DNA from: Acidobacteriota bacterium
GTDB taxonomy: Bacteria > Acidobacteriota > Vicinamibacteria > Vicinamibacterales > SCN-69-37
Assembly: GCA_024640135.1 (NCBI GenBank)
Contig: JAHEFO010000005.1
Span: 1 to 46,753 of the forward strand
Direction: 5' to 3'
DNA: 46,753 bases
Part shown: positions 35,481 to 45,492 of the stretch, piece by piece
How positions within the stretch are numbered: position 1 is the stretch's first letter
Layout: each line of letters begins with the position of its first letter
Notes under the pieces: generated by a model
What the model saw: the letters and a program-made list of their open reading frames with translations, nothing else
The model's database searches: none
What the model was told of the DNA's origin: nothing
Translations under genes and position numbers: made by a program

Positions 35481-38090
35481 ATGAAACGTGTAACGGGTCT
35501 CTCACTCGTGTTGGCTGCCGTGCTTGCCGCGCCATCGGTCCAGTCAGCTTCCCAGGCCCCCGCTGGGGGCGACGTACCGATTGGGCTCACGTGGCGCAAC
35601 GTCGGGCCCGGGGTCACTGGCACCCGGATCGTGGACTTTGCGGTGGTCGAACAGGATCCCGCGATTGTCTATGCGGCCACGGCATCCAGCGGTGTGTGGA
35701 AGACGCTGAACGCCGGCACCACATGGGAACCGCTGTTCCAGCACGAGGAGTCGATCTCCGTCGGTGGGATCGCGGTCTCGCAGTCAGACCCGGACATCGT
35801 CTGGGTGGCGACCGGTGAGCCGAACATGCGGAACCTCCGCAGCACCTCCTGGGGCACGGGTATCTACAAGAGTCTCGACGCGGGCCGCACATGGCGTCAC
35901 ATGGGACTCGCGGATGCGCGCCACATGGGCCGCGTGGTCATCCACCCCGCCAACCCAGACGTCGTCTTCGCGACCGTACTCGGATCGATGTGGCAGAACG
36001 ATCCTCGGCAGAATGCTGTCCGCGGCCTCTACAAGACCACCGACGGCGGTGCGACATGGAGCAAGACGCTCTCGGCCGGCGACCACGCCGGCATCGTGGA
36101 CCTCGTCATGGATCCCACCCAGCCGGACACGCTGTATGCGGCCGCGTGGCACCGCGAACGCCGCGACTGGAGCTTCGTCAACGTCGGCCCTGAGAGCGGG
36201 CTCTTCAAGTCCACCGACGGCGGCGACACGTGGACGAAACTTACAGCCGGCCTGCCGGTGACGCCAACGGGACGGCCCGGTGTCACGGTCTGCCGCTCGA
36301 GGCCGGCGACGCTGTATGCGGTCGTCGAAGGGGCCGACGGGGGCGTGTATCGCTCAACGGACGCCGGAGCGATCTGGACGCGCGTCAACACGATGTCCGC
36401 ATCATCGATGTACTACGGCCAGGTGCGCTGCGACCCGAACAACCCGGAACGGGTATACGTGCTCCAGACCCAGATGGCAATGTCGACGGACGGGGGCAAA
36501 ACCTTCACAACAGATATCCCTGGCCGGAGCGTGCATGTCGATCACCACGCGCTCTGGATCGATCCATCCGATTCGAGTCACCAGTGGCTGGGCAACGACG
36601 GGGGCATTTACCAGACGCGCGACCGCGGCGTGACATGGAGGTTCCACGATCAGCTCTCTGCCACACAGTTCTACGCGGTGGCCGTCGACATGCGCGAGCC
36701 GTTCTACTACGTCTGCGGCGGCACCCAGGACAACAACTCGCTCTGTGGCCCCTCGGCCACCCGAAACACGGACGGCATCGTCAATGCGGACTGGTATGTG
36801 ACGACCGGCGGCGACGGGTTCGCGCTCCAAATCGACCCGACCGACCCGTCGGTGGTGTACACCGAATCGCAGTACGGCGCTCTCGTGCAGTTCAACCCGT
36901 TCACGGGCCAACGGCGGCGGATTCAGCCTCAGGCGCCAGAGGGCCAGACCTATCGCTGGAATTGGAACGCGCCAATGCGGATCTCGCCGCACGACCCTGG
37001 CACGTTCTACTACGGCGCACAGTTCCTGTTCCGAACGCGCGACCGCGGCGCCACCTGGGATGTCGTCAGCCCCGATCTCACACGCCAGGTGGCAATCGAT
37101 CCGGAGCACCTGATCTCGCCCTACAGCACGCTGCTCTGGATTGATGAGTCTCCCCGCCATCGCGGATGGCTGGCGGTCGGCACGGATGACGGGCTGATCC
37201 AGGTGACCGAGGACGACGGAGCGACGTGGCGGCAGGCCGCTGCGATACCGGGCGTGCCCGAGCGCGCGCAGATTCGGCGTGTCTTCCACTCGGCGCATGA
37301 CGACCGCACCCTCTATGCCGCGGCGTCGGCGCATGAAGACGACACCTTCAGGCCGTTCGTCGCGAAGAGCACGGACCACGGCAGAACGTGGACGCGCATC
37401 GACACAGACCTGCCCATGCGCAGTCCGGTGATGTCGCTGGTGGAGGATCCCGTGAATCCCCTCTTGCTCTTTGCGGGCACACAGTTCGGGATCTACGCCA
37501 CCATCGACGGCGGGTCGCGCTGGTTCTCCCTTCAGCTGAACCTGCCCACCAGCCCCGTGCACGACATGGTGATTCATCCGCGCGAGGGCGATCTGGTGAT
37601 CGGCACGCACGGACGCGGGATCTGGCTGCTCGACTCGCTGGCCGGCCTGCGGGGGTTGACGCCTGAGGTACTGGCCGGCCCTGGCACGATCTTCACGCCG
37701 CGGCCGGCCTTCCAGATGACACGCTTTGATCGAGGCCGCAACGCGATGGGCAGCGCGTACTTCACCGCGCCCAATCCGCCAGACGGCGTGTCTCTCGACG
37801 TGTATCTGAACCCTTCGGGCACCGACGCTCCAACCATCGAGATCGCGGACGCCACCGGACGGGTTGTGCGGCGGCTCACCGCGCCGTCCGCCCGAGGACT
37901 CCAGCGCATCCTCTGGGACATGCGGGGCGATCCGCCCGCGGGGGCTCCCGGGAGTCCGGGGCGCGGACGTGGCGGGGCGCGGCCCCTGGTCGCGCCTGGC
38001 ACGTACGAGGCGCGGTTCACCCTCGCCAGCCTGACCACCCGCGTGCCGATCGTCGTACGCCCGGATCCAGGAGGACCTGGGAGGCCGTAG
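35481..38090 (+). CDS. Secreted BNR/VPS10-like beta-propeller protein, copy 1
   Basis: The 869-aa protein has a signal peptide (MKRVTGLSLVLAAVLAAPSVQS). About ten sialidase-type Asp-box/BNR repeats follow (for example SGVWKTLNAGTTWEPLF, GIYKSLDAGRTWRHMG, GLYKTTDGGATWSKTL, GLFKSTDGGDTWTKL), as in VPS10/sortilin propellers. It ends with a FlgD-like Ig segment (ATGRVVRRLTAPSARGLQRILWDMRG). Such proteins are often annotated glycosyl hydrolases, but no catalytic residue can be assigned; binding or structural roles are as likely. It has a clear paralogue at 42832-45492. It converges with the PAS-like gene, 26 nt apart. Confidence 0.88.
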   Translation: MKRVTGLSLVLAAVLAAPSVQSASQAPAGGDVPIGLTWRNVGPGVTGTRIVDFAVVEQDPAIVYAATASSGVWKTLNAGTTWEPLFQHEESISVGGIAVSQSDPDIVWVATGEPNMRNLRSTSWGTGIYKSLDAGRTWRHMGLADARHMGRVVIHPANPDVVFATVLGSMWQNDPRQNAVRGLYKTTDGGATWSKTLSAGDHAGIVDLVMDPTQPDTLYAAAWHRERRDWSFVNVGPESGLFKSTDGGDTWTKLTAGLPVTPTGRPGVTVCRSRPATLYAVVEGADGGVYRSTDAGAIWTRVNTMSASSMYYGQVRCDPNNPERVYVLQTQMAMSTDGGKTFTTDIPGRSVHVDHHALWIDPSDSSHQWLGNDGGIYQTRDRGVTWRFHDQLSATQFYAVAVDMREPFYYVCGGTQDNNSLCGPSATRNTDGIVNADWYVTTGGDGFALQIDPTDPSVVYTESQYGALVQFNPFTGQRRRIQPQAPEGQTYRWNWNAPMRISPHDPGTFYYGAQFLFRTRDRGATWDVVSPDLTRQVAIDPEHLISPYSTLLWIDESPRHRGWLAVGTDDGLIQVTEDDGATWRQAAAIPGVPERAQIRRVFHSAHDDRTLYAAASAHEDDTFRPFVAKSTDHGRTWTRIDTDLPMRSPVMSLVEDPVNPLLLFAGTQFGIYATIDGGSRWFSLQLNLPTSPVHDMVIHPREGDLVIGTHGRGIWLLDSLAGLRGLTPEVLAGPGTIFTPRPAFQMTRFDRGRNAMGSAYFTAPNPPDGVSLDVYLNPSGTDAPTIEIADATGRVVRRLTAPSARGLQRILWDMRGDPPAGAPGSPGRGRGGARPLVAPGTYEARFTLASLTTRVPIVVRPDPGGPGRP

Positions 38091-38116: not shown

Positions 38117-38719
38117 TCAGCGCTGAGTTCTGCCGGTGGACGCCCGTCGGCCCCTGGGAGGCTTCGGAAGGACGCTGACGGCTGCCTGCAGCTGCGCGCC
38201 CGCCGTGCCGAGCGCGTCAACCAGTGCCCGCAACTCAGGCGTGAGTTCAGCCACCGCCAATGCCGTCGTCACCCGTTCGATCGCGGCAGCGGGCGCGTGA
38301 ACGGCGGAGGCCTGGCGTTCCAGTTGCTCGGCGGCCAGCATGTGTTCGCGCGCCTTCTGCAGCAGCGGCCGTGTGTCGTTGTCACCGGTCAGGCGCTCGA
38401 TGACCAGCAGAGCCCGGCGTTCGACCGTCAGCGCCGTGGCGCGCATGAGCGTCTCTTCGCCGGCGATCGGCACCACGAACGGACCGGAGTCGGCCCGGGC
38501 GCCGCGCCGTTCGTGCCATGCGACCCACGCCTGCGGCAGGAAGTGATCCAGGAACGGAAGCCTGGTGTCGTCGTCTGACGTCTCGGGCGGGTCCACGCCC
38601 AGCGCAGCTTCGAGCCACTCCGGCGCCGTGCCCAGCGTCCGGAATCGTCCATCCATGGTGTGTTCGAACACCGTGACATCCAGGGCCCGCAGGACACTGG
38701 CGAGTAACGTTTCGCTCAT
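38117..38719 (-). CDS. PAS-like protein, last gene of the GTPase operon
   Basis: I recognise no named family. The first half of the 200-aa protein (about 15-115) has the strand-helix pattern of a PAS domain (VTVFEHTMDGRFRTLGTAPEWLEAAL, then GEETLMRATALTVERRALLVIERL). The second half is helical (LLQKAREHMLAAEQLERQASAVHA) with a basic tail ending GRRASTGRTQR. No kinase or HTH part follows. The ATG overlaps the GTPase stop (38716-38719), implying coupled translation, so it is likely a partner or regulator of the GTPase. Confidence 0.75.
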   Translation of the reverse strand: MSETLLASVLRALDVTVFEHTMDGRFRTLGTAPEWLEAALGVDPPETSDDDTRLPFLDHFLPQAWVAWHERRGARADSGPFVVPIAGEETLMRATALTVERRALLVIERLTGDNDTRPLLQKAREHMLAAEQLERQASAVHAPAAAIERVTTALAVAELTPELRALVDALGTAGAQLQAAVSVLPKPPRGRRASTGRTQR

Positions 38720-39249
38720 ACCAGCCCCTGACCAATCAGCGGCCCGGCGGAGGCGCCGGCCAGCATCGCCCGCGTGAGTGTCTCGAACGCCTGTTCCACG
38801 CCTTCGCCGGTCTTCGCGCTCGTTCGAATGACCCGCCAGCCCTGTTCGGCCATCTTGAAGAACATCTGCTCGTCAATCTCCCATTCGTCGGCGAGATCGT
38901 ACTTGTTCAGGAGCAGAATGAACGGCACGGATCCGACGGCCTCAACGGCCTTCTGCTGCATGAGTCGCGCGGTCTCCAATGTCGCGCGCCTGGTCCCGTC
39001 CACCACGAGCAGATACCCTGACATGCCGCGCAGATGCGACACCGGCACCGCCTGATAATCGTCATGACCGTAGATATCCCAGAGCATCAACTGCGCATCC
39101 TGCCCGTCGACGGTGACCTGCTTCTTGTCGATCTTGACGCCAACCGTCGTCAGGTACTTCTCCGAGAACATACTGGTGACGTATTGGGCGACCAGACTCG
39201 TCTTGCCGACGGCGAATCCGCCCAGCATGCAGATTTTCTTCTGAATCAT
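38716..39249 (-). CDS. Rab-like small GTPase
   Basis: The 177-aa protein is a Ras-superfamily GTPase close to Rab in style. G1 is GGFAVGKTS (residues 10-18), and switch I is KYLTTVGVKIDKK with Thr35. G3 is LWDIYGHDDY (Asp58, Gly61), G4 is NKYDL (115-119), G5 is TSAKTGEGVEQAF (143-155). At the position of Ras Gln61 it has His62, and DTAG is replaced by DIYG. There is no C-terminal Cys for lipidation. GGAGG lies 7 nt before the ATG. It sits between the OmpA-domain gene and the PAS-like gene. Prokaryotic relatives include the MglA and Rup families; this one is not MglA. Confidence 0.92.
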   Translation of the reverse strand: MIQKKICMLGGFAVGKTSLVAQYVTSMFSEKYLTTVGVKIDKKQVTVDGQDAQLMLWDIYGHDDYQAVPVSHLRGMSGYLLVVDGTRRATLETARLMQQKAVEAVGSVPFILLLNKYDLADEWEIDEQMFFKMAEQGWRVIRTSAKTGEGVEQAFETLTRAMLAGASAGPLIGQGLV

Positions 39250-39274
39250 GATCGACCTCCTCGTCCGCCGCCGG

Positions 39275-41008
39275 CTATTCGCCCGACCCGGTCCGCCTCG
39301 TCACCGTGATCTGCACCCGCCGGTTGCGTTGCTTGTCGACACTATTCTCGCTCATCACGGCCGGTTGCCGGCTGCCTTCTCCCCGGGACACCACTTCCAG
39401 AAACGTCGTGGCGGCCGGGGCGATCGAGACGCGGACGAAGTCGGCTCTGGCCTGGCTCAGCGGCACATTGGCGGCCTCGATCCCATCCGAATCAGTGTGC
39501 CCCACGACTTCGACCCGAAAACGCAGTCCGGTCACACCGGCGATCTGCTCCAACTGACGGGTCTCCTCTGCCAGGCGGCCCAGGGCCACCTCCTGGCCTG
39601 ACGTCAGCCGCGCCGCGCCGCTGATGAACAGGAGCGTCTGCCCTTCAATGGCATCGACCAGGCTCTGGATCTGCCCTGACAGCGCACCGGCCGCGTCAAG
39701 CGACGTCACGCCGGCGACCAGCGGCGCCAGGCGCGCGGCCTCCGCCACCCATTCGAGGGTCACCGCACCGTCCGCCGACAGCACGCCATCGCGTACCGTC
39801 AGCGTGACCCCCGGCGGTGGCCGCAGGGCGCTGGCGGCACGGGCCGCCACCAGGATCGGGTCAAGCGCATAGTAGGGGGTCCAAACGCCGTGCACGTCAT
39901 CGGACGGCAATCCGGTGTCCACCAGCAACTCCTGCGGATCGCGCGCGAGCGGATCACGAAGCCCGGAGACCGTGAAGCCGCCCCACGTCCGGTCGGAAGC
40001 CACCACGACAATGCCAGGCTCGGCGCGCAACGCCTCGAGGTAGGACGACCATCGCTCGGCCGTGCGCCATCGGAGCCCCGCCCACACGAGGATCCCCAGC
40101 AGGACGAGACCCGCGATGACCCAGGTGCTCCGGCTTCTCGGCGCAGTGTCGTCGGCACGGTACTCGGCCGACAGGCAGGTCTCGAGCGTCTGCTGGGTGC
40201 CCGCGAGGGCGCTGGCATCTCCGGTGAACGACTCCAGCACATCGCCGAATTGCAGGTGGATGGACTCGACGGCCTCCTGGAGCCGGCCGCGCAGCGAGGC
40301 GGGCGCGGATCCGCGAATCACCGCGGCCACGATGGCATGGGGCCCGGGCTCAATCCACACAGACAGATCGCCCACCTTGAGGGCTTCAAGGGAATCCGAC
40401 GATTCGACCCGGAACGAGTCCTGCACGAAATCCTTGATGGCTGTGAGCATGCCCGACACCATGTCGGCGTCCTGAACGGCCGCGTGCGCCGCCGACACGT
40501 GCTGGAGGAGCAGGCCGCTCTTGCGTTCGATCAGGAACACCTGCTCGACCCTGTACAGCAGTGTCTTGATGAGCACCAGTTCGGCGAACGATTTCCCGGT
40601 TCTCCACGCCTCCAGACGCCACTGGAGTGAGCGTCGCGACACGGCTTGTTCCAGTGTTCGATTGAGGCTTTCGACCATGCTGGCCAGGCCGGCGGACACA
40701 GCCTTGCGGATGGCCGGTCCCATCACCGGGAACAGCGCATCGGCCAGCGGCTTCGGGTTGCGCTGGACTGACGTCGTGATGGCCTTTTCGATTGGCGGCG
40801 TCAATGCTGCCGTGAAACGCGGATCCTGCGAGTGTTGCAGGAAGACGCGCGGCAGCACCTCGGCTACGTCGGCAGCGCGCTCCTCAGGATCGTCCAGGCG
40901 CGCCTGCAGATCCGCCAGTTGCTGCTGCTCGGGTCCAAGGAGTAACGTCCGAAGTTCTTCGAGGTCGGCTGCCGGCCCGGGATCGCCTGAATCGGCGCGG
41001 TCATCCAC
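39275..41008 (-). CDS. Membrane protein with cytoplasmic longin/roadblock-like region and periplasmic OmpA domain
   Basis: The 577-aa protein has an acidic N-terminus and helical region (1-145). A segment at about 150-262 (YRVEQVFLIERKSGLLLQH, DMVSGMLTAIKDFVQDSF, LKVGDLSVWIEPGPHAIVAAVIRG) matches the pattern of longin/roadblock-type GTPase-binding domains. One membrane helix follows (296-313, WVIAGLVLLGILVWAGLRW). Two strand-helix units, the second BON-like (about 398-450), precede an OmpA-family domain (455-575) with VVGHTDSDG and NRRVQITV, which binds peptidoglycan in relatives. The order suggests cytoplasmic GTPase contact, inner-membrane passage and wall anchoring. It overlaps the coiled-coil gene by 8 nt and precedes the GTPase gene by 25 nt. 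Confidence 0.88.
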   Translation of the reverse strand: MDDRADSGDPGPAADLEELRTLLLGPEQQQLADLQARLDDPEERAADVAEVLPRVFLQHSQDPRFTAALTPPIEKAITTSVQRNPKPLADALFPVMGPAIRKAVSAGLASMVESLNRTLEQAVSRRSLQWRLEAWRTGKSFAELVLIKTLLYRVEQVFLIERKSGLLLQHVSAAHAAVQDADMVSGMLTAIKDFVQDSFRVESSDSLEALKVGDLSVWIEPGPHAIVAAVIRGSAPASLRGRLQEAVESIHLQFGDVLESFTGDASALAGTQQTLETCLSAEYRADDTAPRSRSTWVIAGLVLLGILVWAGLRWRTAERWSSYLEALRAEPGIVVVASDRTWGGFTVSGLRDPLARDPQELLVDTGLPSDDVHGVWTPYYALDPILVAARAASALRPPPGVTLTVRDGVLSADGAVTLEWVAEAARLAPLVAGVTSLDAAGALSGQIQSLVDAIEGQTLLFISGAARLTSGQEVALGRLAEETRQLEQIAGVTGLRFRVEVVGHTDSDGIEAANVPLSQARADFVRVSIAPAATTFLEVVSRGEGSRQPAVMSENSVDKQRNRRVQITVTRRTGSGE

Positions 41009-41597
41009 GTCGACCCTTGTCGGTGCCAGGAAGCTGCAGCTCGTTCGTGAGCCGCATGGCCATTTCGGTGAGCAGCGACGCCAGGATGGCTCGATCCGCC
41101 TTTTCGGTGCGGAGTTCCGTGGCTTCCTGCGTGAGCCGCGCCAGAACCTCGTCAGTCTTCTGCTGCAGCTCGTCAGTCATGCGCTTGTGCAAGTCGAGTG
41201 CCTGCTGGCGCAACTCCCGCTGCGCGCGGTCGATCTGGTCACCCAGTTGCCCGCTCTTCTTTTCGAACGTCTTGGTCGCTTCACGCGTCTCGCGGGCCAG
41301 GTCCTTGTCGGCGCTCGTGCGCTCGCTGTTTTCGGTCTTGATGCGTTCGCCGATCGACCCGGACTCCTGCTTGACAAACTGCTCGAGGGCGGCGAGGCGC
41401 TTCCGCACGTCCTCCTTCATCGCGCTTGTTTCCTTCAGCAGGCGCTCCTCGAGCCGCACGAAGCGGCGCTCGTAATCGCGCATCTGACCGCCGAACAGGA
41501 TGTCGCGGACCTTGTCGATGTTTCCGGCGCCCAGATCGTCCGAGGGCGTAGCGGCCGGCTTCTTCTTGGATTTTGCTCGGTCGGTCTTGGTGGCCAC
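41001..41597 (-). CDS. Coiled-coil protein, first gene of the GTPase-OmpA operon
   Basis: The GTG at 41597 gives 198 aa (MATKTDRAKSKKKPAATPSDD) with AGAGGA 8 nt upstream. An upstream in-frame ATG at 41666 runs through the intergenic repeat and is rejected. After a basic leader comes VRDILFGGQMRDYERRFVRLEERL and then a long charged coiled coil to near the end (EDVRKRLAALEQFV, KDLARETREATKTFEKKSGQLGDQIDRAQRELRQQ). No membrane segment is present. The family has no function I know of. Its overlap with the OmpA-domain gene suggests a stoichiometric partner. Confidence 0.82.
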   Translation of the reverse strand: MATKTDRAKSKKKPAATPSDDLGAGNIDKVRDILFGGQMRDYERRFVRLEERLLKETSAMKEDVRKRLAALEQFVKQESGSIGERIKTENSERTSADKDLARETREATKTFEKKSGQLGDQIDRAQRELRQQALDLHKRMTDELQQKTDEVLARLTQEATELRTEKADRAILASLLTEMAMRLTNELQLPGTDKGRRG

Positions 41598-41722: not shown

Positions 41723-42064
41723 TCAGGCCACGCCGAGCAGTTCCACCTCGAAGACCAGCGTCGCATTCGGCGGGATCACTCGCCCGGCGCCACGCGCTCC
41801 GTAGGCGAACTCAGGCGGCAGCACCAACCGGCGATGTCCACCGACCTTCATTCCCTGGACGCCCTGATCCCAGCCTCGAATGACCTGTCCCGCGCCGATC
41901 CTGAACGAGAAGGGGCCCCTGCCAATCGAGGAATCGAACTGGGCGCCTTTGTTCTCGGGCCCGCTCTCCGAGTAGAGCCATCCGGTGTAGTTCACAGTGG
42001 CGGTCTGGCCCGTCATCGCCATCGCCCCGGTGCCGTCCTGCAGGTCCGTCTGAGAATACGTCAT
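41723..42064 (-). CDS. FKBP-type peptidyl-prolyl isomerase
   Basis: The 113-aa single-domain protein matches the FKBP fold: TATVNYTGWLYSESG, GAQFDSSIGRGPFSFRIGAGQVIRGWDQGVQGMKVGGHRRLVLPPEFAYGARGAGRVIPPNATLVFEVELLGV. The active-site aromatic and acidic residues (Phe/Asp in FDSS, Trp in RGWD, Tyr in EFAYG) are present. There is no signal peptide, so it is cytoplasmic. It starts 5 nt after the DUF937 gene stop, with GGGGAGG just upstream. Confidence 0.95.
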   Translation of the reverse strand: MTYSQTDLQDGTGAMAMTGQTATVNYTGWLYSESGPENKGAQFDSSIGRGPFSFRIGAGQVIRGWDQGVQGMKVGGHRRLVLPPEFAYGARGAGRVIPPNATLVFEVELLGVA

Positions 42065-42069
42065 CCTCC

Positions 42070-42660
42070 CTACCTCCCCACCTTGCCGATCATCCGCATG
42101 ATGTCATCCAGGGGATTGCCGTCGCCGTCCAGATCCAACATCGACGCGAGTCCGCTGCCCGATTTGGCGCCGGCTCCGGAGGCGCTGCCTCCAAGCAATC
42201 CTCCCAACAGATCGCCGAGTCCGCCACCGGCCGGCGCCATCGGTGCCTGGGCGCCACCGCCCTGCTGCTTCGAAATGAAGCCACCGACGAGCATCGCCAG
42301 CATCGGCAACATCTTCTTGAGCACCGATGCATCGAGTCCCGACTGCGACGAGGCGTTTTTCGCCACCGCGCGGCTCACGTCCTTCGAACCGAAGATTTGC
42401 CCGAGCACGTCGTTACCGCGGGCCACATTCGTCGGCCTCGCCCCCAGCACGTCGTCGAGCAGCCCACCACCGCCGAGTTGACCGAGCAAACCGCCGAGCC
42501 CTTCCAGGCCGGAGGTCTGCTGCGCCTGTTTCTTGAACCCTCCGAGAACCGCCGGGCCCAGAGCTGCAGCGCCCTTCGCCGCATCGGCTTCGCTGACGCC
42601 GAGTTCCCGGGCGATTGATTGAAGGCCGCCCATCTGGGCAAGGATGTCTGAAAGCTGCAT
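42070..42660 (-). CDS. DUF937 (YidB-like) protein
   Basis: The 196-aa protein has the DUF937 pattern: an N-terminal helical segment (LSDILAQMGGLQSIARELGVSEADAAKGAAALGPAVLGGFKKQA), glycine-rich loops (GLGGLLGQLGGGGLLDD), DVLGQIFGSKDVSRAVAKNASSQSGLDASVLKKMLPMLAMLVGGFIS, and a C-terminal LDLDGDGNPLDDIMRMI. Function is unknown. AAAGGAG lies 8 nt before the ATG. A weak TTGCAG-17-AATCAT is seen further upstream. Confidence 0.87.
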   Translation of the reverse strand: MQLSDILAQMGGLQSIARELGVSEADAAKGAAALGPAVLGGFKKQAQQTSGLEGLGGLLGQLGGGGLLDDVLGARPTNVARGNDVLGQIFGSKDVSRAVAKNASSQSGLDASVLKKMLPMLAMLVGGFISKQQGGGAQAPMAPAGGGLGDLLGGLLGGSASGAGAKSGSGLASMLDLDGDGNPLDDIMRMIGKVGR

Positions 42661-42795
42661 TGTCGGCTCCTTTGGCTGGTCGTTTGGCGGTGTCGCCCTT
42701 CATGATTGCGTTTGGCACCGCGGACTGCAAGGACAATGGTGGAACACCGGGCTCTGCTGACCGCCGCCCCTGACGATCGGCGGAATCCGGTGACA

Positions 42796-42825
42796 CTGAC
42801 AGAGTCGAAAGTGTGGCTCTACAAT
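42796..42825 (+). promoter_or_regulatory. Promoter of BNR protein copy 2, leaderless geometry
   Basis: CTGACA (42796-42801), an 18-nt spacer and TACAAT (42820-42825) make a good vegetative-type promoter. The GTG start at 42832 lies only 6 nt after the -10 box, where the transcript itself should begin. Confidence 0.6.
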
Positions 42826-42831
42826 ACTGGC

Positions 42832-45492
42832 GTGGATACGAAAGCCCCCCTTCGCCTTATTCTCGCGGCTGCGTTTCTTGCGGCCGCGTCGGCTGCGCCT
42901 GTGGCTCGCCAGTCGGCGCAGGCCACCTCCCCCGCAGAACGCCGTCAATCCTGGATTGACCACGTGGCCATGCGGGACGGGTCTGAGTTTCGCGGCATGC
43001 GCTGGCACGCGCTGGGACCGTCGCAGCAGGGATCGCGAATAGAAGCGATCGCGTTGTCACCGGGCGATCCAGCGACCATGTACGTAGGACCTGGCGGCGG
43101 CAACGTCTGGAAGACCACCAACAACGGAATCACATGGTCCCCAGTCTTCGACCATGAATCCGCATTCTCGATCGGCGACATCGCCGTCGCGCCGTCCGAC
43201 GAATCCATCGTCTGGGTCGGCACCGGAGAGGTGCAGCCAAGGCATAGCGGTCCGTCGTTTTCCGGGACCGGTGTGTTCAAGTCTTCCGACGCCGGGCAGA
43301 CGTGGACCAACCAGGGCCTCGGCGACACGCATCACATTGGCAAGGTCCTGATCCATCCGACCAATCCGGACCTCGTGTACGTGGCGGCCATGGGCCACTT
43401 CCGATCGGCCAACGACGAACGCGGCGTGTTCCGGACGACCGACGGCGGCCGAACTTGGAGCCGGTCGCTTTTTGTCAGCGACCAGACCGGCGTCATCGAT
43501 CTGGTGATGGATTCATCAGATCCCGACACGCTTCTTGCCTGGGCCTGGCAACTGACCGTGGACGGCGAGAGCGGCCCCCAGAGCGGGCTCTACAAAACGA
43601 CTGACGCGGGTGTGAGCTGGAAGAAGATCACGGCCGGATTACCGGCCGGTCCGATGGGGCGCGCGGGACTCGACATTGCGCCGAGCCGGCCCAACGTCAT
43701 GTACGCCTTTGTCGACAACTGGACGCCGGTGACGGGCGATGGCAACCGCTCCATCGTCGGTGGCGAAGTCTACCGCTCTGACGATCGCGGTGAGTCCTGG
43801 AAGAAGGCGAATACCGACGATACCTATGGCGTATTTGGCATCTTTGGATGGAAGTTTGCCGATGTGCGCATATCGCCCATCGACGAGAACGAGCTCTACA
43901 TCCTTGGCAACCGGATGTTCCGTTCCACCGACGGCGGCAAGACCTTCACGCGCATCGGCGAAACGATTCGACGGGTCAACAATACGCCCGGCGAAACAAT
44001 GCACCTCGATCACCATGAACTCGTGATCGACCCCAGGAATCCAGCGCGCCTGATCCTGGGCAACGATGGCGGCGTGTTCATCTCACACGACAAGGGCGCC
44101 ACCTGGCTCCATCTCAACAACATTCCGATCGGCCAGTTCTACTTCGTCACGGTTGATGACGGAGATCCCTATCGCATTTATGCCGGGTCACAGGACACCG
44201 GCGCGCTCGTGGGGCCATCGACGTATCGCTACGCCGCCGATCCGGTTGCGACTGATGCGTGGCGCTACATCTGGCTCGATCAGTGGACCGGCGGCGATGC
44301 ATTTACGACGCTTCCGGACCCCACCCATCCAGGGCTGGTGTACTACGAGCACCAGAATGGCGCGATGCGGCGCATCGACATGTCGGTCGGAAATCCCTAC
44401 TCCGGGGGACCGGCGACCGAAGTGGTTCGGCCGCGTCCGGCCGACGGTGATCCTCCGGTGCGCTTCAGCTGGTTCACGCCGTATCTCATCTCGCATCACG
44501 ACCCGCACACCTTGTATGCCGCGGGCAACGTCGTGTTCAAGACCACCGACCGGGCGGCGACCTGGCGCCGGATCAGTCCCGACCTCGGCGAGCCGGGAAG
44601 CACCGAACGCGCGATGGTGCCGACCGGCGCGATCACGACGCTGAGCGAGTCGAGACTGAAGGCAGGCGTCCTCTATGCCGGCACTGAGGGTGGCAAGGTC
44701 TGGGTGACCCAGGACGATGGTGAACAGTGGGCCGAGATCACGGCAGGCCTGAGAGACAGCAAGTGGGTCACGCGCGTAGTGGCGTCTGAGCATGATGAGG
44801 CGGTGGTCTACGCCGCTCAGAGCGGGTACCGGCAGGACGACTTCAGGTCGTACATCTTCCGATCGGCCGATCACGGCACCACGTGGCAATCGATTGCCAA
44901 CGGCCTGCCTGCCGAGCCCGTCAACGTCATCATTGAGGACCCGACATCACCCTCCATTCTCTACGTGGGGACGGATCTGGGTGTCTACGTCACGCTGGAC
45001 GCCGGCCGGTCCTGGCAATCGCTCGTCGCGGATCTCCCCAGCACGCCCGTCTACGACCTTGTTGTTCATCGGCGGGAAGGCGAACTGATCGCCGCGACAC
45101 ATGGGCGGGGGCTCTTCCTTCTGGATGTGCGGCCGGTTCAGGCGAGTGCGGCGGCCACTTCCGGGCCCGGACTTACCGTGTTCCCGGTACGTCCCGTCCG
45201 ACTGACCTGGCACGTGCGGCGTGAAGTGCCCCCGCAGCCCCCTCGGGGAATCGCGGAAATCCACTACCGAGTGGCTGCGGGCGGCGATGTGCAGATGATC
45301 GTTCGAGACGGACAGGGACGCGTGGTCAGGACCCTGGCCGGTCGCGCCGTGCCGGGCGTCAATGTCCTCGAGTGGGACGCGCGCAATGATGCCGGCCGGG
45401 ACATGGCCCCTGGCACCTACCAGGTGGAGGTCAGCTCGGCAGGGATGCAGGCAACCACGATGGTGGAGTTGTTGCCAGTGGAGCCGCGCTAG
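42832..45492 (+). CDS. Secreted BNR/VPS10-like beta-propeller protein, copy 2
   Basis: The 886-aa protein from the GTG at 42832 has a signal peptide (MDTKAPLRLILAAAFLAAASAAPVA). BNR/Asp-box repeats follow (GGGNVWKTTNNGITWSPVF, GVFKSSDAGQTWTNQG, GVFRTTDGGRTWSRSLF, GLYKTTDAGVSWKKI, EVYRSDDRGESWKKA, and others). The C-terminus is a FlgD-like Ig unit (LEWDARNDAGRDMAPGTYQVEVSSAG). The frame is open upstream to 42706, but only the GTG gives a signal peptide and fits the promoter. It is paralogous to 35481-38090. Function unknown; glycosidase labels would be unsupported. Confidence 0.88.
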   Translation: MDTKAPLRLILAAAFLAAASAAPVARQSAQATSPAERRQSWIDHVAMRDGSEFRGMRWHALGPSQQGSRIEAIALSPGDPATMYVGPGGGNVWKTTNNGITWSPVFDHESAFSIGDIAVAPSDESIVWVGTGEVQPRHSGPSFSGTGVFKSSDAGQTWTNQGLGDTHHIGKVLIHPTNPDLVYVAAMGHFRSANDERGVFRTTDGGRTWSRSLFVSDQTGVIDLVMDSSDPDTLLAWAWQLTVDGESGPQSGLYKTTDAGVSWKKITAGLPAGPMGRAGLDIAPSRPNVMYAFVDNWTPVTGDGNRSIVGGEVYRSDDRGESWKKANTDDTYGVFGIFGWKFADVRISPIDENELYILGNRMFRSTDGGKTFTRIGETIRRVNNTPGETMHLDHHELVIDPRNPARLILGNDGGVFISHDKGATWLHLNNIPIGQFYFVTVDDGDPYRIYAGSQDTGALVGPSTYRYAADPVATDAWRYIWLDQWTGGDAFTTLPDPTHPGLVYYEHQNGAMRRIDMSVGNPYSGGPATEVVRPRPADGDPPVRFSWFTPYLISHHDPHTLYAAGNVVFKTTDRAATWRRISPDLGEPGSTERAMVPTGAITTLSESRLKAGVLYAGTEGGKVWVTQDDGEQWAEITAGLRDSKWVTRVVASEHDEAVVYAAQSGYRQDDFRSYIFRSADHGTTWQSIANGLPAEPVNVIIEDPTSPSILYVGTDLGVYVTLDAGRSWQSLVADLPSTPVYDLVVHRREGELIAATHGRGLFLLDVRPVQASAAATSGPGLTVFPVRPVRLTWHVRREVPPQPPRGIAEIHYRVAAGGDVQMIVRDGQGRVVRTLAGRAVPGVNVLEWDARNDAGRDMAPGTYQVEVSSAGMQATTMVELLPVEPR

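Follow-up and report, generated by a model that had tools for sequence, protein, structure and literature searches.

An output-less variant of the Group 1 Rup GTPase gene set in an Acidobacteriota bacterium, with a proposed Rab-longin mechanism

Introduction

What kind of system is encoded by a run of four genes that sets a Rab-like small GTPase beside an inner-membrane protein with a periplasmic OmpA domain? Such a run lies on the minus strand at positions 38117-41597 of the window analysed here, which is the whole 46,753-nucleotide stretch of contig JAHEFO010000005.1 (assembly GCA_024640135.1) from an Acidobacteriota bacterium. A preliminary description, made from the sequence alone, took the run for an undescribed system. 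That claim is rejected, because the same four-gene neighbourhood around Group 1 Rup GTPases was published in 2014 by Wuichet and Sogaard-Andersen (PMC4316618). The locus is an output-less variant of this known but uncharacterised kind, and a Rab-longin mechanism is proposed for it. What goes beyond the literature found is the longin prediction for the OmpA protein, the great variety of interchangeable outputs, a broader spread of the set across phyla and a clade lacking the output. Experimental work on a Group 1 Rup system was not found in the literature searched, which had little reach into subscription journals.

Does the locus belong to the Group 1 Rup type?

The four open reading frames (ORFs) and the features within them are listed below, with lengths in amino acids (aa).

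41001-41597, minus strand: coiled-coil protein, first gene of the set, predicted to be cytoplasmic (ORF, GTG start, 198 aa)
39275-41008, minus strand: inner-membrane protein with a cytoplasmic N-terminus and a periplasmic OmpA domain (ORF, GTG start, 577 aa)
40160-40558, minus strand: predicted longin/roadblock-like domain, residues 151-283 of the OmpA protein (AlphaFold2 model, VIA-align, Foldseek)
40073-40129, minus strand: transmembrane helix, residues 294-312 of the OmpA protein (hydropathy maximum 2.09)
39320-39523, minus strand: OmpA peptidoglycan-binding domain, residues 496-563 of the OmpA protein (PF00691, E 4.6e-7)
38716-39249, minus strand: Rab-like small GTPase of the Group 1 Rup type (ORF, ATG start, 177 aa; PF00071, E 9e-32)
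38117-38719, minus strand: output-less protein with a predicted PAS domain and helical hairpin (ORF, ATG start, 200 aa; AlphaFold2 model, family profile)
38384-38719, minus strand: predicted PAS domain, residues 1-112 of the fourth protein (structure comparison of the model)
38348-38359, minus strand: Q121-R124 in the linker helix of the PAS-like protein, near-invariant (family alignment, 66/68 each)

As the preliminary description had it, the four genes share one strand, and the ORF coordinates agree with overlaps of 8 nt between the coiled-coil and OmpA genes and of 4 nt between the GTPase and PAS-like genes, and with a 25-nt gap between the OmpA and GTPase genes. A GAGGAGG ribosome-binding site precedes the GTPase gene. 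The coiled-coil protein contains neither a membrane helix nor a hydrophobic segment, and no Pfam family reaches its cut-off for this protein.

The published set places rup among genes for a coiled-coil protein, for an inner-membrane/OmpA protein and for a signalling protein with an invariant Gln in its N-terminus, and the Group 1 Rup GTPases themselves are without the Gln of the G3 motif (PMC4316618). The locus is alike in all four parts. Its Ras-superfamily GTPase has intact G motifs and is missing the G3 Gln; a cytoplasmic coiled-coil protein adjoins it, as does a protein with a conserved domain, an inner-membrane helix and an OmpA domain; and the N-terminal region of the fourth protein bears Q121. 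Q121 is probably the invariant Gln of that paper. Coupling to MglB homologues is not a feature of Rup GTPases, and no Robl_LC7 match was found in the genome of the window. The locus differs in two respects: the conserved domain of the OmpA protein is here predicted to be longin-like, and the 200-aa fourth protein has no output domain, whereas the output module of the fourth gene is typically GGDEF/EAL or a histidine kinase (PMC4316618). Since that account says "typically", the locus is filed as a variant, and its assignment to the Group 1 Rup type is nearly certain.

Rup GTPases have been described as the prokaryotic group nearest to the eukaryotic Rab/Rho/Ras/Ran families (PMC4915359). The window GTPase is a single-domain Ras-family protein whose closest solved relative by sequence is Rab23, with other Rabs next. 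Its nucleotide-binding motifs are intact, and the motifs checked are invariant or nearly so in 83 relatives. At the position of the catalytic Gln, Glu was found in 63 and Asp in 9 of the 83, and the window GTPase is the sole bearer of His (His62) among them. His at this position is also seen in translational GTPases. No prenylation cysteines are present at the C-terminus.

How widely is the gene set conserved?

A collection of species genomes was scanned with an alignment of GTPases, and at least 573 relatives were found. The best 80 of these span Cyanobacteriota, Nitrospirota, Acidobacteriota, Bacteroidota, Pseudomonadota, Thermodesulfobacteriota, Verrucomicrobiota, Gemmatimonadota, Deinococcota, Planctomycetota, Latescibacterota and others; the published Rup tree comprised 71 sequences. 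Partner genes were searched for with profile hidden Markov models (HMMs) built from the window proteins, at 82 GTPase loci with enough flanking sequence. These loci were picked by GTPase similarity to the window, and the counts therefore describe near relatives, not all Rup proteins: the OmpA-type partner and the coiled-coil partner each lie near the GTPase in 72 loci, the PAS-like partner in 64 (family HMM) and the complete four-gene set in 57, of which 55 have the order and strand of the window. The gene set is not due to chance, as it recurs in many phyla (more than 10), well beyond close relatives. The preliminary description is supported in its reading of the run as a co-conserved, GTP-gated trans-envelope signalling module. 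Among the closer relatives of the window organism, the system has a scattered distribution: it is present in 20 of the 396 genomes from the phylum and in 6 of the 162 from the order, and it was found in no other same-genus or same-family genome searched.

In one locus (L144, 5483-6615), a tandem pair of Rup-type GTPase genes shares one operon and is followed by a PAS-histidine-kinase gene.

Which part of the OmpA protein could meet the GTPase?

A single transmembrane helix is present in the OmpA protein. Its OmpA domain carries NxxLSxxRAxxV at residues 514-525 (read in the sequence), which we take to be the peptidoglycan motif from general knowledge of OmpA domains; a domain scan revealed no catalytic domain that would act on the wall. 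In an AlphaFold2 model made with 50 homologues (mean pLDDT 84), residues 12-149 are helical and residues ~150-283 adopt the order beta-beta-alpha-beta-beta-beta-alpha-alpha before the membrane helix, with block means of 80-97 across residues 151-280. The modelled sheet is five-stranded and has the longin order of helices. VIA-align placed the VAMP7 longin at the top (Z 13.5, 2.5 A, 117 residues), followed by Sec22b (Z 13.3), Fuzzy of CPLANE (13.0), Trs23 of TRAPP (12.5), Mon1-Ccz1 (11.3) and MglB (10.9); the sigma-adaptins also share the fold. The best Foldseek matches were MglB (9e-5) and Mon1-Ccz1, at E ~1e-4. Residues ~151-283 are thus predicted to form a longin/roadblock domain, which would give the GTPase a partner. 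The orientation in which longin and roadblock domains bind small GTPases is reported to be conserved (PMC3521125, PMC10933270), and longins go unmentioned in the account of the Group 1 gene set (PMC4316618). Residues 145-265, singled out in the preliminary description as a candidate GTPase-binding region, coincide with the predicted domain.

OmpA-type partners of only 435-453 aa were seen at five loci (L088, L108, L123, L137 and L139; Meiothermus, Granulosicoccaceae), where the OmpA domain is perhaps missing.

What does the fourth protein contain?

A Pfam scan of the PAS-like protein gave no match whatever, and Pfam PAS was found in 5 of 50 relatives, at best with 3e-4. Its N-terminal part is nonetheless predicted to adopt a PAS fold: the model moderately matches the PYP domain of Ppr (Z 8.3) and the PAS domain of NtrB (Z 8.2), and Foldseek returned a LOV-histidine kinase (8e-5). 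A PAS assignment had been guessed from the sequence earlier, and the predicted structure (Z ~8) backs it. In the AlphaFold2 model, the PAS domain is followed by a long helix bearing Q121 and R124 and then by a second helix.

What follows this region varies greatly among relatives. In 48 of them, the outputs are HATPase (30), HisKA (19), sigma-54 activators (8) and receiver domains (7), and more rarely HD (4), GGDEF (2), EAL (1) and SpoIIE (1). At several loci where no PAS-like domain can be recognised, an output gene still adjoins or lies near the GTPase, encoding histidine kinases, SpoIIE, guanylate cyclase or PP2C. The fourth protein of the window resembles PAS-histidine kinases in its PAS domain and helical hairpin, but where relatives run on into HisKA/HATPase it stops 61 residues past the PAS-like match, with no HisKA or HATPase match and no output domain, an absence that the preliminary description had overlooked. 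An unlinked output protein with a second PAS-like copy was not found in its own genome, where the sole other match covers the HisKA part.

Unusual neighbours of Rup-type GTPases at other loci are an adenylate/guanylate cyclase domain (L136, 6555-7574), a PP2C phosphatase (L037, 6786-7610) and a SpoIIE phosphatase (L122, 8498-9712).

The same short fourth protein, with 187-191 aa, occurs in three further genomes of the order, so that the short form is present with an intact reading frame in four genomes of three families (187-200 aa). In a tree of the GTPase and OmpA protein, made from relatives found in this analysis, the four short-form loci form one clade (SH-aLRT 88; 0 of 500 shuffles were equally clustered). 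Because three more genomes carry it and the four group together, the short form cannot be put down to an assembly artefact or to one isolated truncation. All four output-less proteins retain R124 and three retain Q121; that of the window has lost Trp81 of the family and a following Glu.

Proposed mechanism and alternatives

We propose that the OmpA protein, pinned to peptidoglycan, presents its longin-like domain at the cytoplasmic face. This domain would be the membrane dock of the Rab-like GTPase and would also set its nucleotide state, whether as exchange factor or as platform, according to the state of the envelope, with the coiled-coil protein as a scaffold of the complex. A dimeric PAS-hairpin protein would read the GTP-bound GTPase, and its Q121/R124 helix may complete GTP hydrolysis, since the GTPase is without a catalytic Gln of its own. 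The missing Gln and the near-invariant Gln/Arg pair fit the idea, already published, of a Gln supplied in trans to Rup GTPases (PMC4316618). In most relatives, a kinase, transcription or second-messenger output is attached to the PAS protein. The window protein has no output and would probably either contact a partner encoded elsewhere or serve only as a GTPase-activating protein (GAP). The binding, the roles as guanine nucleotide exchange factor (GEF) and GAP, the direction of the signal and the sensing of the envelope are steps that we infer, and the mechanism as proposed (longin docking and setting, PAS readout and Gln/Arg-aided hydrolysis) has about an even chance of being correct.

Several points weigh against this mechanism. 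The longin assignment comes from structure: for the OmpA protein, no longin/roadblock Pfam match rose above cut-off, a PDB-sequence profile search with its N-terminus gave no meaningful match, and hhalign against roadblock proteins returned a probability of 0.1, a weak negative because two rows of the roadblock alignment (L182 and L184) were out of frame. Not all longins are GEFs, since SNAREs and adaptins contain them too. About one-fifth of the well-flanked loci contain no recognisable PAS-like gene. The protein at L175 carries R at position 121 and Q at the next residue, and the conservation of Q121/R124 could reflect signalling through the helix, not catalysis. The longin-like domain might be a mere membrane-side scaffold or dimerisation module, like those of SNAREs or adaptins, with the GTPase controlled by the coiled-coil protein or by factors encoded elsewhere. 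The roles of longin/roadblock folds outside GTPase regulation (PMC10933270) and the absence of sequence similarity to known GEF/GAP subunits in the hhalign test speak for such a scaffold; yet the longin-bearing protein is strongly conserved beside a Rab-like GTPase across phyla, and several of its nearest folds (Fuzzy, Trs23, Mon1-Ccz1 and MglB) are GTPase partners. A pure scaffold is a possible but rather unlikely explanation.

The direction of signalling is a separate matter. The preliminary description had the PAS protein sensing and the single-pass OmpA protein acting on the cell wall, and PAS domains are indeed common sensors; with an output-less fourth protein, the OmpA protein is also the only candidate for a membrane-wall effector in this clade. 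The kinases, sigma-54 activators and cyclases of relatives sit on the PAS protein, however, and no wall-directed catalytic domain is seen in the OmpA protein, so that the direction is probably the reverse and the earlier one improbable. It is more likely that the OmpA protein anchors or senses and that the PAS protein reports, because relatives attach kinase, transcription and c-di-GMP outputs to the PAS gene. A decayed fourth gene, left behind by an ancestral kinase or cyclase output in a disappearing operon, would account for the missing output, for the lost Trp81 and Glu and for the failure to find the system in the genomes searched from the same genus and the same family. Decay would have broken the gene somewhere, but the short form is intact across three families in one substantially diverged clade, with R124 kept throughout; decay is improbable.

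How does the locus compare with other GTPase systems?

The MglA/MglB switch and the actinobacterial conservons likewise combine a small GTPase, a partner of the roadblock/longin fold and a signalling protein nearby, and the predicted longin domain of the window matches the MglB fold. Unlike in these systems, no MglB/CvnB-type (Robl_LC7) protein is detectable in the genome of the window, on which ground an MglB-regulated GTPase is rejected by sequence; the longin-like domain lies within a wall-anchored membrane protein, and the GTPase is nearer to Rabs. With eukaryotic Rabs and their longin-type GEFs (TRAPP, Mon1-Ccz1 and Fuzzy-Inturned), the locus shares a Rab-like GTPase and a longin-fold partner (Z 11-13). 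Here, in contrast, a single longin protein sits in a bacterial envelope, its exchange activity is hypothetical, and the GTPase is without C-terminal prenylation cysteines. An anti-phage system is rejected, as only a generic MotB/OmpA and coiled-coil likeness to Zorya was seen (ZorB 2e-6, ZorA 9e-5), and so is a phage origin, the only similarity to phage families being that of OmpA domains and elongation factors.

Neighbouring genes

Directly upstream on the same strand are genes for an FKBP-type isomerase and a DUF937 protein, at 41723-42064 (minus) and 42070-42660 (minus). On the opposite strand, the operon is flanked by genes for two large proteins with BNR/sortilin-like repeats, at 35481-38090 (plus) and 42706-45492 (plus); the proteins are paralogues of 869 and 928 aa with 43% identity, from a family strongly expanded in this genome (19 matches with E < 1e-100). 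A foreign composition is rejected, since the GC content of the operon resembles that of its flanks. A local promoter and terminator scan gave no signals clearly above shuffled background.

What would a Rab-longin switch in bacteria mean?

A predicted longin partner encoded beside the GTPase and fused to a peptidoglycan anchor in more than 10 phyla provides a concrete biochemical hypothesis, namely, longin-mediated exchange or docking, with hydrolysis completed by a PAS-linker helix. Tentatively, and with somewhat less confidence than an even chance, Group 1 Rup operons may be a bacterial Rab-longin switch that a peptidoglycan-anchored longin protein sets and a PAS port with many outputs reads, one Acidobacteriota clade having shed the output, which leaves the switch itself as product. 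This output-less clade offers a minimal four-protein version suited to reconstitution. If true, bacteria would have their own equivalent of the Rab/longin pairing in eukaryotic membrane traffic, and the system bears on whether that pairing predates eukaryotes.

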